Positions 3,814 through 28,701 of a stretch of DNA of 64,000 nucleotides are shown here, piece after piece. Source of the stretch: Immundisolibacter cernigliae (GTDB taxonomy: Bacteria; Pseudomonadota; Gammaproteobacteria; Immundisolibacterales; Immundisolibacteraceae); assembly GCF_001697225.1 (NCBI RefSeq), contig NZ_CP014671.1, positions 806,001 to 870,000 on the forward strand. Direction: 5' to 3'. Below the pieces are notes generated by a model. That model had not been told where the DNA came from and did not search any database. It worked only from the letters and a program-made list of their open reading frames with translations. Within the stretch, counting starts at the first letter, position 1; each line of letters starts with the position of its first letter. The position numbers and the translations under genes were made by a program.

Positions 3814-4116
3814 TCAGCGGCGTTCTGCGTGCTCGCCGCGGCCCGGCCCACGGCCCCGCGCGAAGCTGCCGACCTCGTTGTCGTCTGGGAGTGCCAAGCA
3901 CGCCAGTGAAGACCCCGGGCGCCGCGGGTATAAGAACGGCAGCAAGTCGCCGTAAATGCGCACCCGCAGTTCACATGGCGTTTCGGCGTCCTGGGCGATC
4001 TCCACCAGCGCCGCCATCGGGTCGCAGCCGCGATCTTCAAGCCGCTCGGCCAGGGCCGCCGTGGGCGTGTTGGGCGTGCCTTTCTGGCGTCCGCCAGTCT
4101 TGTAGCCGGCTGCCAT
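3814..4116 (-). CDS. Small phage-type protein (GRQKGTPN family)
   Basis: The 100-residue product begins MAAGYKTGGRQKGTPNTPTA, the characteristic N-terminus of small proteins found near terminase genes of prophages and islands. Its middle part ends YGDLLPFLYPRR, recalling the common ...YxxPKRK segment of those proteins. The C-terminal 30 residues are Gly/Arg-rich and not recognised. It is the last gene at the distal end of the island. Function unknown; a DNA-packaging accessory role is a guess from family context. Confidence 0.6.
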   Translation of the reverse strand: MAAGYKTGGRQKGTPNTPTAALAERLEDRGCDPMAALVEIAQDAETPCELRVRIYGDLLPFLYPRRPGSSLACLALPDDNEVGSFARGRGPGRGEHAERR

Positions 4117-4379
4117 GTCCTGCCTCGGTCTACTTTAGACACCCGCGCGGGCAGGGGAAGCCTGTACCGCACCCGCGGCCATAGTGCCCGAAACGCCGCG
4201 CTCCCCTGATACCCCGCTGACGTATATTCGCCCTGCTGTGCGCGCTCCAGGGAGTGTCTTCGAATGAACAAGCATCAGAAGCAGGTGCTGATCCTATGTG
4301 CGGCCATCCTGTTGGCAATGTTGCTGTTCCCGCCGTTCCAGGTCCAGGTTCGGGGGACCGCGTTCAACATGGGGTATCA

Positions 4380-5351
4380 CTACCTGTCACGTCCCGGCCG
4401 ATTATTTGGCCTTCGATGAAACAGCTCCGGTTTTGAAGCGTACCAGTGCTGAAGCGCTTGAGCCGGAGTCTGGGCGTTCAGTGCCTTCTGCGGCAAGTGG
4501 TGGTTGTAGAGCGTGACATAGCGGTGCAGGGTCTGCTCCAGGTCCTCGCTGGACCTGAAGTGGTGCGTGCGCAGCAGGTCCGCGATGCGCCCGTTGAAGC
4601 GCTCGACCATGCCATTGGTCTGCGGGTGGCGCGGGGGCGTCAGACGGTGCTCGATGCCCAGTTCCTGGCACAGGCGATCGAACTCATGCGTCCCGGTCGG
4701 GGCCCGCGCCCGGCTCCCGAACAGCCGGTCCGTGAACTCGGTGCCGTTGTCGGTGAGCAGGCGCGTGATGCGCACCGGGCAGGCCGTGGCCAGGGCACTG
4801 AGGAAGGCGCGCGCCGAGCGCGCGCTCTTGTCGGCTTTCAGGGCCACGTAAACCCAGCGGGTGGCCCGATCGATGGCCACGAACAGGAACCGGCGCCGGT
4901 CCTCGTCGGCCATCTGCGGCAGGTACTTCACGTCGACGTGCACAAAGCCGGGCACGTAGGTCTTGAAGGTCTTGCTGACCGCTTTGTCCGGCGCCGGGCG
5001 CAGGGCGCGCAGGTTGCCCACGCCGTGGCGGCGCAGGCAGCGGTCCAGCCCGGAGCGGGACACGTCCGGACACAGGAACTCGCGCGTCACCGCCAGCAGG
5101 TCGTCCAGCGGCAGCAGCAGGGCCCGGCGCAGGTAGACCACGATCGCCTCCTGGCCGGGGGTCAACGTCGTTTGCAGGCGGTGCGCGGTGTGCGGCCGGT
5201 CGTAGACATCCGGGCGCCGCTTCCATTTGTAGATCGTCGGCTCGGTGACGCCAAAGCGGCGGGCCAGCACCGCCACCGGCTCATCACTGGCCGCGATCTG
5301 CGCCCGCACGTGGGGCGTGGTGCGGGCTTGTTTGTGCAGTGCAATCAGCAT
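4380..5351 (-). CDS. IS481-family transposase (copy 1)
   Basis: A 323-residue transposase with an N-terminal helix-turn-helix (AVLARRFGVTEPTIYKWKRR) and an integrase-type catalytic core. The DDE residues lie in HVDVKYLP, LLTDNGTEF and NGMVERFNGR. The reading frame runs off the left end of the element: its stop codon (TAG) is formed by the target duplication rather than by the IS itself. The gene lies antisense to the RDD/Sel1 gene it disrupts. Confidence 0.92.
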   Translation of the reverse strand: MLIALHKQARTTPHVRAQIAASDEPVAVLARRFGVTEPTIYKWKRRPDVYDRPHTAHRLQTTLTPGQEAIVVYLRRALLLPLDDLLAVTREFLCPDVSRSGLDRCLRRHGVGNLRALRPAPDKAVSKTFKTYVPGFVHVDVKYLPQMADEDRRRFLFVAIDRATRWVYVALKADKSARSARAFLSALATACPVRITRLLTDNGTEFTDRLFGSRARAPTGTHEFDRLCQELGIEHRLTPPRHPQTNGMVERFNGRIADLLRTHHFRSSEDLEQTLHRYVTLYNHHLPQKALNAQTPAQALQHWYASKPELFHRRPNNRPGRDR

Positions 5352-24655: not shown

Positions 24656-25150
24656 TCACACGCCAGGCCGATGCTGGCCGGCGCGTTCATCGACAAGCCG
24701 CACGCGGCGTGCACCGATGATGTGGGCCAGCACCAGTGCCGGTAATGCCAGGCCCAGAACCCAGTGGCTGACCGACACCCACGGGCGCGCCATTTCATCG
24801 GCCACGTAGTACAGCGCCCAGCCGCCGAGGGCCAGCAGCCCGCAGGCGGCGAGCAGTACGAGCCCGCTGATTCGCCGACGGCGAGGTCGCCAGGCAGGCC
24901 ACACGTGCATCGGCAGCAGTGCGCCAAGACCGAGCAGCGCCGGCAGGGCCAGCAGGCCGTGCAGGCGCATCAGCCAGGCTTCCAGCGGATGGTGCTCGGG
25001 GCCGAACGGTCCCTCCACGCGCAGCCAGGTGTGCAGCACCAGCCAGGCGGCGCCGGTGATCAGCAGCAGCAGGCAAAGGCCATATACCGCGCGCCGGCCG
25101 AGCGGCCCGAGGCGCGGACCCAGCAGCGTGTAGCGTGGGCCGGGTTTCAT
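24656..25150 (-). CDS. Four-helix membrane protein of the flavinylation operon (possible b-type cytochrome)
   Basis: A 164-residue protein with four predicted membrane segments (GLCLLLLITGAAWLVLHTW, HGLLALPALLGLGALLPMH, SGLVLLAACGLLALGGWAL, HWVLGLALPALVLAHII). Histidines at both ends of helices 2 and 4 (RLHG/PMHVW and SHWV/LAHI) could ligate two b-type hemes. That is an inference; no family name is certain. Its start overlaps apbE by 4 bases (ATGA), tying it to the flavoprotein pair. It could pass electrons across the membrane to the periplasmic flavin domain. Confidence 0.7.
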   Translation of the reverse strand: MKPGPRYTLLGPRLGPLGRRAVYGLCLLLLITGAAWLVLHTWLRVEGPFGPEHHPLEAWLMRLHGLLALPALLGLGALLPMHVWPAWRPRRRRISGLVLLAACGLLALGGWALYYVADEMARPWVSVSHWVLGLALPALVLAHIIGARRVRLVDERAGQHRPGV

Positions 25151-26010
25151 GCGGCGGGCAGCAGCAGGGCCTGCGCCTGCAGGCGGCGCAGGACAGGTTC
25201 GCAGGCGGCCGGATCGATGGCCAGCGGTTTGGTCAGCGCGTCGGCGTAAAGGCAGGAACGGGCCAGCACGGTCACGCTGCCGGTCGCCGCACAGGCCCGC
25301 CCGCGGCGCGGGTCGACCAGCGGCGAGCGCCAGGTCTGTCCGTGCCGGCGGCGGGTGTCCGCCACGCAGCTGGTCGCCACGGCGCCCTGCAGCAGCGGCG
25401 GCAGCAGCCGCAGCCGGGCCGGAGCGGCCGGATCGCGCACGCCGATCCGGCGCGGCTCGCGGCCGTAAAAGCGCAGGTCACCGCCGGCGTTCACACAGGC
25501 CTGCGGCACGCCGGCCCTGCGCAGGCTGGCGATGGCCAGATCCACCGCATAGCCCTTGGCGATGCCGCCGAGGTCAATCAGCAGCGGGCGCGCGAAGCGC
25601 ACCATGCCGTTGGTGCCAAGGCGGATGTCGCGCCAGTCGCCGGTCGTTTCCGTGCTGTCCGGCAATCCGGGCAGATAACCCCAGCGCACCAGTGTCGGCG
25701 CGACGGTCACGTCGAAGCGGCCATCCGTGAGCGCGCTCAGCCGGCAGGCCGCGCGCAGCACACGCCGCAGGTGCCCGCTCACCGGCACCGGGCCGGCGTG
25801 CGCCGCGCGGTTCAGGCGCGACAGCTCGCTATCCGGTTCGTGAAAGCTCATCCGGCCGTGTACCTGCGCCACGGCCCTGAAGGCGCGGTCGATGGCCCGT
25901 GCAAGCTGCGCCGGCGGCAGGCCGGTCGCCTCGATGCCGACCAGCGTGCCCAGCCACGGCTGCGCCCGGCGCAATGCGCCGGTCAGTGACTGCGTCAGGG
26001 GAGCATTCAC
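25147..26010 (-). CDS. apbE: FAD:protein FMN transferase (ApbE)
   Basis: The 287-residue enzyme transfers FMN from FAD to a Thr in target proteins. Family motifs are RFDVTVAPTL, LLIDLGGIAKGYAVD, CVNAGGDLRFYG and the metal/FAD site ADALTKPLAID. It starts with GTG overlapping the stop of the FMN-binding gene (GTGA). No lipobox is seen, unlike many ApbE proteins, so its export is unclear. The target is almost certainly the SGAT motif of the upstream gene. Confidence 0.94.
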   Translation of the reverse strand: MNAPLTQSLTGALRRAQPWLGTLVGIEATGLPPAQLARAIDRAFRAVAQVHGRMSFHEPDSELSRLNRAAHAGPVPVSGHLRRVLRAACRLSALTDGRFDVTVAPTLVRWGYLPGLPDSTETTGDWRDIRLGTNGMVRFARPLLIDLGGIAKGYAVDLAIASLRRAGVPQACVNAGGDLRFYGREPRRIGVRDPAAPARLRLLPPLLQGAVATSCVADTRRRHGQTWRSPLVDPRRGRACAATGSVTVLARSCLYADALTKPLAIDPAACEPVLRRLQAQALLLPAA

Positions 26011-26555
26011 GGCGCAGCGCCGAGCAGCGCGCGGTGGGTGGCCAGCAGGCGCCGCACACCATCGGTCAGGTGACGGCAGGACAGCGTGGCGCCGCTGATG
26101 TTCTGGATGTCGCGCCCGAGCTTGACCGCATCGCTCGCGTCCTTGCCCAGGAACTGCGCCCGCCAGCGCGGCTGGCGCACTTGGTCGCCGTGCGTCTCGC
26201 GGTAATCGAGGATTTCCACACCCGCCACCTGGCCATCGGCCGTGACCGCCAGCGCGTAGGTGATGAACTCATGCTTGCCGTAGACCTGATCCACGAACAG
26301 GTGGCCGAGCAGCGTGTCGCCTGCCATGGCGCGCCACACCTTGGGTTTGCGGTTGACGACGCGGGTATCGCTGGCCTGTTCGATGGCGCGCACCTGTTCG
26401 GCCGTGAGTTCGACCGCTTCCGCGGCGTAGCCGGTCCCGGTCGGGAACAGCAGCCGCTGCGCCTGTTCGATGCTCAGGTATTGCGTGGCCTGCGCCGCCA
26501 GTGGCGTGACCAGCAACGGGACGGCGAGCCACGGGGAGGGCAGCGGGCGGGACAT
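26007..26555 (-). CDS. Periplasmic FMN-binding-domain protein, ApbE target
   Basis: A 182-residue protein beginning with a signal peptide (MSRPLPSPWLAVPLLVTPLA). The C-terminal FMN-binding domain contains NISGATLSCRHLTDGVR; the Thr of SGAT is the expected covalent FMN site. It has ALAVTADGQVAGVEILDYRE upstream, as in NqrC/RnfG/NosR-type domains. It is the first gene of a coupled operon with apbE and a membrane protein, and lies 20 bases from a Fur-like palindrome. Likely role: extracytoplasmic one-electron carrier, possibly in metal reduction. Confidence 0.9.
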   Translation of the reverse strand: MSRPLPSPWLAVPLLVTPLAAQATQYLSIEQAQRLLFPTGTGYAAEAVELTAEQVRAIEQASDTRVVNRKPKVWRAMAGDTLLGHLFVDQVYGKHEFITYALAVTADGQVAGVEILDYRETHGDQVRQPRWRAQFLGKDASDAVKLGRDIQNISGATLSCRHLTDGVRRLLATHRALLGAAP

Positions 26556-26575
26556 GGCGGCTATGCTGCCCTTGA

Positions 26576-26590
26576 TGCGAATGATTCGCA
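26576..26590. promoter_or_regulatory. Fur-box-like palindrome upstream of the flavinylation operon
   Basis: TGCGAATGATTCGCA is a perfect 7-1-7 inverted repeat. It resembles the Fur consensus TGATAAT-n-ATTATCA in layout and in the central AAT-n-ATT. It lies 20 bp upstream of the FMN-domain gene start (minus strand) and about 140 bp upstream of ccmG, well placed to repress the operon when iron is plentiful. Confidence 0.6.
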
Positions 26591-26732
26591 ATGTTTGGGA
26601 CTTGATACGCCTCAAGCCCGGCCCGAAAGCACCGCTGCGGCGACCTGTGTTCGCGGCAATCCCGGGTCGGCCGGCATAATTGCGCCCCGGCCGGGCATGT
26701 CCCGCTCCTGTCGACAGATCAACCATCGCTTC

Positions 26733-27257
26733 ATGAAACTCTGGCGTCTGCTTCTTCTGCCCGCGCTGGCGCTGCTGCTGGGTGCGCTGGCGCTCGGCCT
26801 GCGGCACGATCCGAAGCAGATTCCCTCGCCGCTGGTCGGCAAGCCGCTGCCGGCCATCGCGGGCGAGACACTGGACGGGCAGCCGGTCGATCTGGCCAAG
26901 GCCGGACAGGGCGGGCCGCTGCTGATCAACGTGTGGGCCTCGTGGTGCGAGTCCTGCGCCGTGGAGCATCCGGTGGTGGTAGCGGCGGCGCGGCAGTTCG
27001 GTGACCGGGTGACCTTCATCGGCCTCAACTACCGGGACAAGCGCGAACTGGGCGAGGCCTGGCTGGCCGAGCGCGGCAACGCCTACCGCTGGTCGTTCTT
27101 CGATCCCGAGGGCCGCGCCGGCATCGAACTTGGCGTGTACGGCGTGCCGGAGACCTTTTTCGTGGCCGCCGACGGCACGCTGCTGGCCAAGCACGTCGGG
27201 CCGCTCGACACGGACAGCCTGCGCGGCTACCTCAAGACGCTGTTCGGGGTGAGCTGA
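26733..27257 (+). CDS. ccmG: Cytochrome c biogenesis thiol reductase CcmG/DsbE
   Basis: The 174-residue periplasmic thioredoxin-like protein has one N-terminal membrane anchor (LLLLPALALLLGALALGL) and the active site WASWCESC. Later it has the cis-Pro region YGVPETFFVAADG. It keeps apocytochrome c CXXCH cysteines reduced for heme ligation (system I). Its stop shares a base with the ccmH start (TGATG). It heads a ccmG-ccmH-ccmI run; ccmA-F are not in the window. Confidence 0.95.
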   Translation: MKLWRLLLLPALALLLGALALGLRHDPKQIPSPLVGKPLPAIAGETLDGQPVDLAKAGQGGPLLINVWASWCESCAVEHPVVVAAARQFGDRVTFIGLNYRDKRELGEAWLAERGNAYRWSFFDPEGRAGIELGVYGVPETFFVAADGTLLAKHVGPLDTDSLRGYLKTLFGVS

Positions 27258-27643
27258 TGCGCGGGCTTGTGATTGCGCTGCTGCTGCTGGCGCCGCTGGC
27301 ATGGGCTGATGTGGTCAGCGAAGACCCGCAGCAGCGGCAGATGCTCGAAATCGCCGAAAAACTGCGCTGCGCGGTGTGCCAGAACCAGTCGGTGGCGGAG
27401 TCGAATGCCGAACTGGCGCAGGACATGCGCCGGATCATCGTCGAGCAACTTGCCGCCGGGCGCAGCGAGGCCGAGGTCATCGACTACTTCCGCGCCCGCT
27501 ACGGCGATTTCGTCCTCATGCGACCCCCGCGGCAGGGTTCGGGCGCTCCGCTGTGGTGGGCGCCGTGGGCGATCCTGGCGGCGGCCGGCGGCGGGGCTTT
27601 CATCTACCTGCGCAGGCGCCTGCGCGCTCAGGAGCGTTCGTGA
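27257..27643 (+). CDS. ccmH: Cytochrome c maturation protein CcmH
   Basis: The 128-residue protein has a signal peptide (MRGLVIALLLLAPLAWA), the defining LRCAVCQNQ redox motif, and a C-terminal membrane anchor (WAILAAAGGGAFIYL) followed by Arg-rich residues. It accepts electrons from CcmG and reduces apocytochrome c. Its stop overlaps the GTG start of ccmI. Confidence 0.96.
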   Translation: MRGLVIALLLLAPLAWADVVSEDPQQRQMLEIAEKLRCAVCQNQSVAESNAELAQDMRRIIVEQLAAGRSEAEVIDYFRARYGDFVLMRPPRQGSGAPLWWAPWAILAAAGGGAFIYLRRRLRAQERS

Positions 27644-28701
27644 CAGCACTCGTTCTGACCGGCCTGGCGGTGCTGGCCGCGGTGGCCTGGCTGGTGCTGC
27701 GCCTGCCGTCGCCGATAACTGCCACCGACACCCTGGCGACACGGCGCGCGCAGTTGCAGGCGAGCCTGGACGAGCTGGCCCGCGCCCGCGCCGACGGCAT
27801 GCTGGACGAGGCGAGCTTTGCCGACGAACAGCGTCGCCTGCAGGCCGACATTGCGGCCCTGGCGCAGGCCGGCCCGGCAGCGGCGCGGACCGCGTCGCAG
27901 CCCGGCAGCCGAGGATGGCCGTTCGCGCTGGCGGTATTTGTCCTGCTGCCGGCCGCGGCCGTGGGGCTGTATGGCTATTTGCAGGGTCCGTTCTGGCAGC
28001 AGCTTGATGCCGCGCAGAAGGCTCCGGATGCCGCCGCGGCGCCGGTCGATCCGGCGGCCATGGTGGCGCGGCTCGAAGCGCGTCTGGCCAAGGACGGCAG
28101 TGATCCCGAAGGCTGGCGGCGCCTGGGCCGCTCCTACGTCGTGCTCGGCCGCCCGGCCGACGCGCGGCGTGCCTACGACCGCGCGGCGCAGCTGGCGCCG
28201 GACGATCTGACGCTGCTGGAAGGCTACGCGGACGCCGCCGAGCCCGGCGTGGCTCCGCCGCCCGGCATCGCGGCCATGATCGCCACCGTCGAGCAGGGCA
28301 TCCTGGCCACGCCGGACGATCCGCGTGCCTGGGTGCGCGCCGGCTTTGCGCGCAGCATGCAGGGCGACCGCAGCGGCGCCCGCGACGCCTACGCCCGTGC
28401 TCACGAACTGGACCCGCAGCGCCCGGAAGTGCTGGCCGCGTATGCTGCCAGCGAGTACGCCCTGAACCCGCAGCAACCCAGCGCGCGGGCGGTGGAACTG
28501 TACGAGCGCCTGCTGAAGATCAACCCCGACAACGGCTCCGCGCTGTGGGTGCTCGGCCAGGCCGCGCAACAGGCCGGGCAGCCTGCCCAGGCGCGCGAGC
28601 ATTGGCAGCGCCTGCTGGGGCTGCTGCCGGCCGATTCGCCGATGCGGGCGCAGGTGCAGCGGGCGATCGACGCGGTAACGGGAGGCGCTGGGGCGCCGTA
28701 G
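27640..28701 (+). CDS. ccmI: Cytochrome c biogenesis protein CcmI (TPR)
   Basis: Starts at GTG 27640, overlapping the ccmH stop (GTGA); 353 residues. It has two membrane segments (about 2-20 and 93-113) enclosing a cytoplasmic loop, then a periplasmic TPR domain (GWRRLGRSYVVLGRPADARR, PRAWVRAGFARSMQGDRSGA, GSALWVLGQAAQQAGQPAQA). CcmI chaperones apocytochrome c to the CcmFH ligase. The divergent C-terminus is Ala/Gly-rich. Confidence 0.93.
   Translation: MTALVLTGLAVLAAVAWLVLRLPSPITATDTLATRRAQLQASLDELARARADGMLDEASFADEQRRLQADIAALAQAGPAAARTASQPGSRGWPFALAVFVLLPAAAVGLYGYLQGPFWQQLDAAQKAPDAAAAPVDPAAMVARLEARLAKDGSDPEGWRRLGRSYVVLGRPADARRAYDRAAQLAPDDLTLLEGYADAAEPGVAPPPGIAAMIATVEQGILATPDDPRAWVRAGFARSMQGDRSGARDAYARAHELDPQRPEVLAAYAASEYALNPQQPSARAVELYERLLKINPDNGSALWVLGQAAQQAGQPAQAREHWQRLLGLLPADSPMRAQVQRAIDAVTGGAGAP

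Follow-up and report, generated by a model that had tools for sequence, protein, structure and literature searches.

What does a cell gain from three overlapping genes that encode an exported flavoprotein, the enzyme that would flavinylate it and a small membrane protein, when a Fur-like palindrome stands at their head? The question is raised by a locus of Immundisolibacter cernigliae (GCF_001697225.1, contig NZ_CP014671.1), for which we analyzed a stretch of 64,000 nt (positions 806,001-870,000, forward strand), here called the window. The genes lie on the minus strand in the order FMN_bind, ApbE, membrane protein: an FMN_bind periplasmic protein of 182 aa with an ATG start (PF04205; 26007..26555), an ApbE FAD:protein FMN transferase of 287 aa (PF02424; 25147..26010) whose GTG start overlaps the FMN stop codon (GTGA), and a four-helix membrane protein of 164 aa, a putative two-heme cytochrome b (24656..25150), whose ATG overlaps the ApbE stop codon (ATGA). 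Each junction is an overlap of 4 nt, so that the coupled three-gene operon described in a first-pass annotation of this DNA was found in place. A promoter scan of the operon found no sigma-70-like promoter, and a terminator scan saw one terminator-like site against 0.8 expected. Our reading, to which we give a probability of roughly two in three, is that the three genes constitute an electron relay under Fur control that crosses the inner membrane, serves iron assimilation and ends in ferric reduction.

The FMN_bind protein scored 41.4 bits against PF04205 (cut-off 22, E 2e-10), and its profile matched RnfG and NqrC chains in the PDB, with RnfG as the best match (best E 3.8e-10); the AlphaFold model has a mean pLDDT of 84. 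Its N-terminus is a hydrophobic segment ending in an AxA-type site, giving a signal peptide at approximately residues 1–23 (MSRPLPSPWLAVPLLVTPLAAQA). A hydrophobic N-terminal segment is also present in the FMN proteins of relatives, among which only that of locus L054 carries a twin-arginine pair in this region. Like RnfG and NqrC, the protein combines an FMN_bind domain with an acceptor motif, but it differs from them in being exported with a cleavable-looking signal. The SGAT acceptor that had been proposed lies at residues 154–157 (26085..26096, minus strand), and S154, G155, A156 and T157 are invariant in 28/28 aligned sequences (alignment A2). FMN is predicted to be esterified to Thr157, an assignment that we make by presumed analogy with NqrC. 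Outside that alignment, a relative on a Sphingomonas plasmid (L109, 4929-5456) has SGGT instead of SGAT. At residues 157–162 (TLSCRH) a Cys stands three residues past the acceptor Thr; this Cys is a common though not universal feature of the family, and the His two residues after it is nearly invariant.

The neighbouring ApbE scored 163.1 bits against PF02424 (cut-off 25.6, E 1e-47). By sequence, both elements of an ApbE flavinylation system are therefore present, namely an ApbE transferase domain and an FMN_bind substrate with an SGA(T/S) acceptor. The search of the genome found this one ApbE gene and no FMN_bind protein other than that of the window, which makes them look like a dedicated pair.

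The membrane protein was modelled as four helices (16–41, 55–87, 93–116 and 122–159) with a mean pLDDT of 90.1, in agreement with the four-helix protein claimed before. Four histidines stand out. His64 (codon 24959..24961) and His82 (24905..24907) in TM2, and His129 (24764..24766) and His143 (24722..24724) in TM4, all on the minus strand, were each conserved in 35/35 homologues; when four plasmid relatives were added, His64, His82 and His129 were found in 39/39 and His143 in 38/39; the one exception, a protein that keeps the 14-residue spacing, looks by eye like a misalignment. Of the ‘paired histidines’ noted previously, H64/H82 and H129/H143 proved invariant, whereas the adjacent H53/H54 did not. 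Two invariant His in TM2 and two in TM4 provide the bis-histidine pairs predicted for a b-type cytochrome, as would be expected of a minimal, putative two-heme cytochrome b, and their placement presumably resembles that of the ligands on helices B and D of cytochrome b/b6 (bc1). The Arg-rich N-terminus, the stretch between TM2 and TM3 and the stretch after TM4 would, by the positive-inside rule, lie in the cytoplasm. This topology would place H64/H129 at the periplasmic side and H82/H143 at the cytoplasmic side, with His129 as the predicted heme-ligating partner of His64 and His143 as that of His82.

When the model was compared with known structures, heme-binding four-helix proteins took 12 of the 15 highest rows (de novo 4D2 proteins, hydrogenase cytochrome b, superoxide oxidase and cytochrome b6), although structural Z-scores of 10–12 are commonplace among helical bundles. 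Foldseek returned no match in the PDB at E 0.001 or better, and a PDB sequence search gave one match at chance level (E 0.91). The protein matches no Pfam model at cut-off and no NCBIfam model at 0.1. Prokaryotic cytochrome b561/superoxide oxidase (PF01292) is similar in being a four-helix heme membrane protein (5oc0, Z 10.8), but the window protein, at 24.9 bits, falls under the Pfam cut-off of 30.1. Among the 35 homologues, 17 match PF01292 and 3 match DUF4405 (PF14358) at E 0.01 or better, the latter weakly (best 6e-5); the window protein has no DUF4405 match at 0.01. PepSY, MsrQ, NapH, DsbD and NQR/RNF-like domains are absent from the window protein (Pfam, E 0.1), and none appears at 0.01 among the families listed for the homologues. 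FoxB/PepSY is also absent among the structural matches listed, which excludes nothing.

Flavinylation systems have been described with five membrane donor classes, and PepSY-type clusters of Shewanella and Caulobacter are Fur-repressed (PMC8238504). A Caulobacter DUF2271-DUF4198-ApbE cluster is listed among iron-responsive genes (PMC3751524), and DUF4405 cytochromes and the ferrosome protein FezC were later added as apbE-linked small membrane cytochromes (PMC11334425). The window module resembles the PepSY-like/DUF2271/ApbE clusters in the predicted pairing of ApbE-dependent extracytosolic flavin electron transfer with a heme membrane protein, and the published clusters are linked to iron reduction as well as Fur-repressed (PMC8238504). 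It differs in that its proteins have no PepSY, DUF2271 or DUF4198 domains, its putative cytochrome is a four-helix protein bearing two His on each of TM2 and TM4, its substrate is of the FMN_bind type and its ApbE is leaderless. With DUF4405 and FezC it shares a small, here putative, membrane cytochrome with four central His beside apbE, and FezC is iron-linked; DUF4405 is, however, reported with six transmembrane helices and FezC as a homodimer (PMC11334425), whereas one four-helix chain of the window protein carries all four His. The portions of PMC8238504, PMC11334425 and PMC3751524 available to us contain no combination of four-helix cytochrome, FMN_bind protein, DUF6662 barrel and leaderless ApbE; the supplements may list such clusters. 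A search by title and abstract found no paper describing the set of FMN_bind, ApbE and four-helix protein with iron genes, and a literature search for DUF6662 found no papers. The flavinylation class is known in outline, and the membrane protein is, as far as its sequence tells, of an unnamed kind; it would add a probable membrane donor class to these systems, tied to Feo-type uptake by gene neighbourhood and operator sites.

The case for iron control begins with the palindrome. A perfect 7-1-7 palindrome upstream of the operon had been claimed, and TGCGAATGATTCGCA, a putative Fur box, is present at 26576..26590, 20 bp upstream of the FMN start codon. It occurs as an exact copy only once in the 3.24 Mb genome, and in the window nothing else matches it with fewer than three mismatches. 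Such a site could belong to another regulator or be a chance palindrome: it agrees at just 10/14 positions with TGATAATNATTATCA, which we take to be the Fur consensus, and matches with up to three mismatches occur in the window at chance level. We regard this as highly improbable, given where the near-copies lie. A degenerate Fur-like pattern with at most one mismatch hit four places in the whole genome, and a backward control pattern hit none. The four are the window palindrome itself, a site approximately 126 bp before feoA-feoB, a third approximately 50 bp 5' of bfd-bfr, and a last one, presumably there by chance, within coding sequence that by eye is of the tolQ/tolR type. A further site, two mismatches from the window palindrome, lies approximately 92 bp before a hemP match that is followed by tonB and exbB. 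The suggested Fur motif scan has thus returned near-copies before feoAB, bfd-bfr and hemP-tonB-exbB of the same genome, and graded Fur-like forms such as TGCGAATCATTATCA stand at the operon heads of relatives. Another two-mismatch place, at 2470153, overlaps an open frame. The FUR family is represented in the genome by one gene, whose product scores 187 bits against the NCBIfam Fur equivalog (cut-off 146) and is a true Fur. The operon is probably switched by Fur.

Absence of the palindrome from relatives had been named as one of the observations that would speak against this regulation. The palindrome is kept in the same-genus genome G001, and Fur-like sites head the operons of more distant relatives, which we collected as 35 related loci matching the FMN protein in a scan of genome contigs. 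By tblastn, ApbE was found in 32/35 of these loci, the membrane protein in 32/35 and the whole triad in 30/35; the upstream outer-membrane gene encodes a DUF6662-type barrel in 30 loci and another porin type in 4 (n=35). A search for the DUF6662 barrel gave no match in the window’s genome or 19 relatives, and the positive control of that search also went unmatched. Iron genes are frequent nearby, with Pfam support for representatives: FeoB and HemP each occur in 14 loci, Bfd in 9, Bfr in 7 and FeoA in 5, while 2 loci have a second ferritin-like protein and 1 has FTR1. At least one iron gene lies near the module in 26/35 loci, and the other 9 have none within the stretch examined, some being shortened by contig ends.

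For the sites themselves we used a matrix made by hand from the presumed consensus, with a score threshold of 18, and defined zones as the 250 bp upstream of iron, barrel or porin genes (9.1% of the sequence). Sites scoring at least 18 fell in the zones in 33/51 cases, across 24/35 loci, and outside them in 18/51; the binomial value of 2e-22 for this enrichment is not a true probability, since the matrix was made post hoc, with the window site already known, and the loci are related. A plain count of sites with at least 10/14 matches to the presumed consensus gave the same picture (41/75 sites in zones, 23/35 loci). By our own reading of the output, a site stands at the hemP, barrel or porin gene leading into the FMN gene in 21/35 loci. 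No Fur-like site of note lies immediately 5' of the FMN gene in the 35 relatives, which is not a refutation because this gene usually follows close behind the barrel or porin gene and the sites are at the operon head. The neighbours in relatives (26/35 loci) suggest a link to iron stronger than the first-pass annotation could have known, and its proposal of an iron-regulated extracytoplasmic flavin shuttle gains support from the own-genome sites, the true Fur and these neighbours, all of them genomic evidence. Feo uptake has both Fur-like sites in this genome and the gene neighbourhood in relatives in common with the module, which differs from it in having no transporter and would supply Fe(II) to FeoB.

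The relay could be iron-regulated and run the other way, or serve another partner, for example by oxidising periplasmic Fe(II) or superoxide into the quinone pool. The E. coli superoxide oxidase puts electrons into this pool, and the top structural rows include superoxide oxidase (5oc0). The relatives include Sulfuriferula, Sideroxydans and Thiobacillus, genera with Fe- or S-oxidising members, and a copy on a Methylocystis plasmid adjoins copper-oxidase and ferritin-like genes. Yet FeoB, HemP and Bfd as neighbours, together with Fur-like control, indicate iron shortage, and a Fur-repressed Fe(II) oxidase would be on at the wrong time, so that we consider a reversed relay unlikely.

No iron gene adjoins the module in the window itself, where it is flanked by a DsbE/CcmG gene and an OmpA-like gene (the latter named by eye). 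The DsbE/CcmG gene (at 26733) runs divergently from the module and is followed, within 26733-28701, by CcmH- and CcmI-like genes (both named by eye); the Fur-like box lies in the upstream region common to the module and this gene, as does an FNR-like box described below. The divergent arrangement would suit a general periplasmic reductant shuttle for cytochrome c maturation or other redox work, under iron control only through the heme need of the cytochrome. That explanation seems to us very unlikely: the recognised neighbours in relatives are iron genes and outer-membrane proteins, and if heme demand were the reason, one would expect induction under ample iron and no box in common with feoAB and hemP.

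The second box is the FNR-like inverted repeat TTGATACGCCTCAA at 26602..26615, its centre 25.5 bp from that of the Fur-like box; it agrees at 9/10 positions with what we take to be the FNR consensus. A 9/10 version lies at the same place in G001. The genome holds 55 FNR-like places against 6 for a control pattern, and six Crp/FNR-type HTH matches above cut-off. One of the FNR-like places adjoins the Fur-like site of feoA, in the same order relative to transcription as at the module, and E. coli feo is under FNR and Fur. Among the 35 relatives only 2/51 Fur-like sites have an FNR-like neighbour, so the box appears to be a local feature.

Returning to ferric reduction as the preferred reading, the relay would work as follows. 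The four-helix protein would act as a minimal two-heme cytochrome b, with one heme held by His82/His143 near the cytoplasm and the other by His64/His129 near the periplasm, and would accept electrons, with quinol as the likeliest donor. In the exported FMN_bind protein, ApbE would link FMN to the threonine of SGAT. Electrons would then pass from quinol to the cytoplasm-near heme, the periplasm-near heme and the covalent FMN, and the reduced flavin would reduce periplasmic ferric iron or a ferric chelate, the ferrous product entering through FeoAB by way of FeoB. When iron is replete, Fe-Fur on the palindrome would shut the operon off, and an FNR-type regulator may raise its expression at low oxygen. 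In relatives, the barrel or porin may admit iron species through the outer membrane. In this scheme we infer the heme, the covalent FMN, the electron donor and direction, the substrate and the binding of Fur and FNR. It would suggest a function for a ‘hypothetical’ membrane protein and for DUF6662.

The transferase is the part that does not fit. Most ApbEs are secreted, and one cytosolic bacterial ApbE serves a soluble fumarate reductase (PMC12052999, as far as available to us). Location was judged by hydropathy alone. By this measure the window ApbE has no signal peptide and no hydrophobic segment ahead of its catalytic domain, and so lacks the signal peptide or lipidation site of a canonical extracytosolic ApbE. 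The first-pass annotation had mentioned neither this nor the FNR-like box, and the outer-membrane partner in relatives was beyond its view. No signal-like hydrophobic stretch was seen in the ApbE of the window or of 34 other loci examined in which it adjoins the FMN gene, and in these proteins just 5–25 residues or so precede the conserved LGT-type motif. Extending the frame 5' reads through the FMN gene out of frame and encodes no leader. The ApbEs of four annotated plasmid relatives likewise have no signal peptide by hydropathy. The sole high hydropathy value came from L062, where the frameshifted FMN gene runs into the ApbE frame; at this locus (4001-4409) the FMN gene is split over two frames, a frameshift or assembly error.

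A leaderless ApbE does not fit periplasmic flavinylation of an exported substrate and, as a prediction from sequence, counts against the proposed relay. With an exported substrate, either ApbE would get out of the cytosol along an unrecognised path, or FMN would already be attached to the precursor ahead of export. It is possible, though doubtful, that the second alternative defines a widespread and unnamed class of flavin ferric reductase, made of a DUF6662 barrel or porin, an exported FMN_bind protein, a two-heme cytochrome of four helices and an ApbE acting on the precursor inside the cytosol. Were this so, flavinylation would come before secretion, unlike the described periplasmic route of ApbE; a chain already carrying flavin would have to go through the Sec machinery, and the cell would need no flavin exporter. 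The site at which an exported protein is flavinylated becomes a sharp question here, and a genome in which one ApbE and one FMN_bind protein were found is a clean setting for it.

Because the 35 loci had come by way of the FMN protein, a second search was seeded with the membrane protein alone. It matched 8/275 genomes of the class, including the window’s genome and one of the same genus. Six strong matches lie outside the genus, in 5 genomes, and 4 of them have the whole triad; in L101 the membrane protein stands alone, and in L104 its neighbour is a weaker FMN_bind match and ApbE is missing. One further match (L107 in G069, E 4.9e-5) has no module neighbours and, being probably false, was set aside. 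Among annotated plasmids 8 records matched, of which 5 were opened. Four of these have a barrel or unnamed gene followed by genes for an FMN-binding protein, an FMN transferase and a ‘hypothetical protein’, the last being the public name of the membrane protein in all four; the fifth plasmid is unannotated, and tblastn recovers all four parts from it.

Some of the 35 loci vary the arrangement. In L051, L055 and L059 the FMN gene has no detected ApbE beside it, and L059 is also without the membrane protein. Two loci, L033 (3989-5148) and L039 (4007-5167), carry two FMN_bind genes in tandem with the Fur-like sequence TGAGAACAATTCTTA between them.
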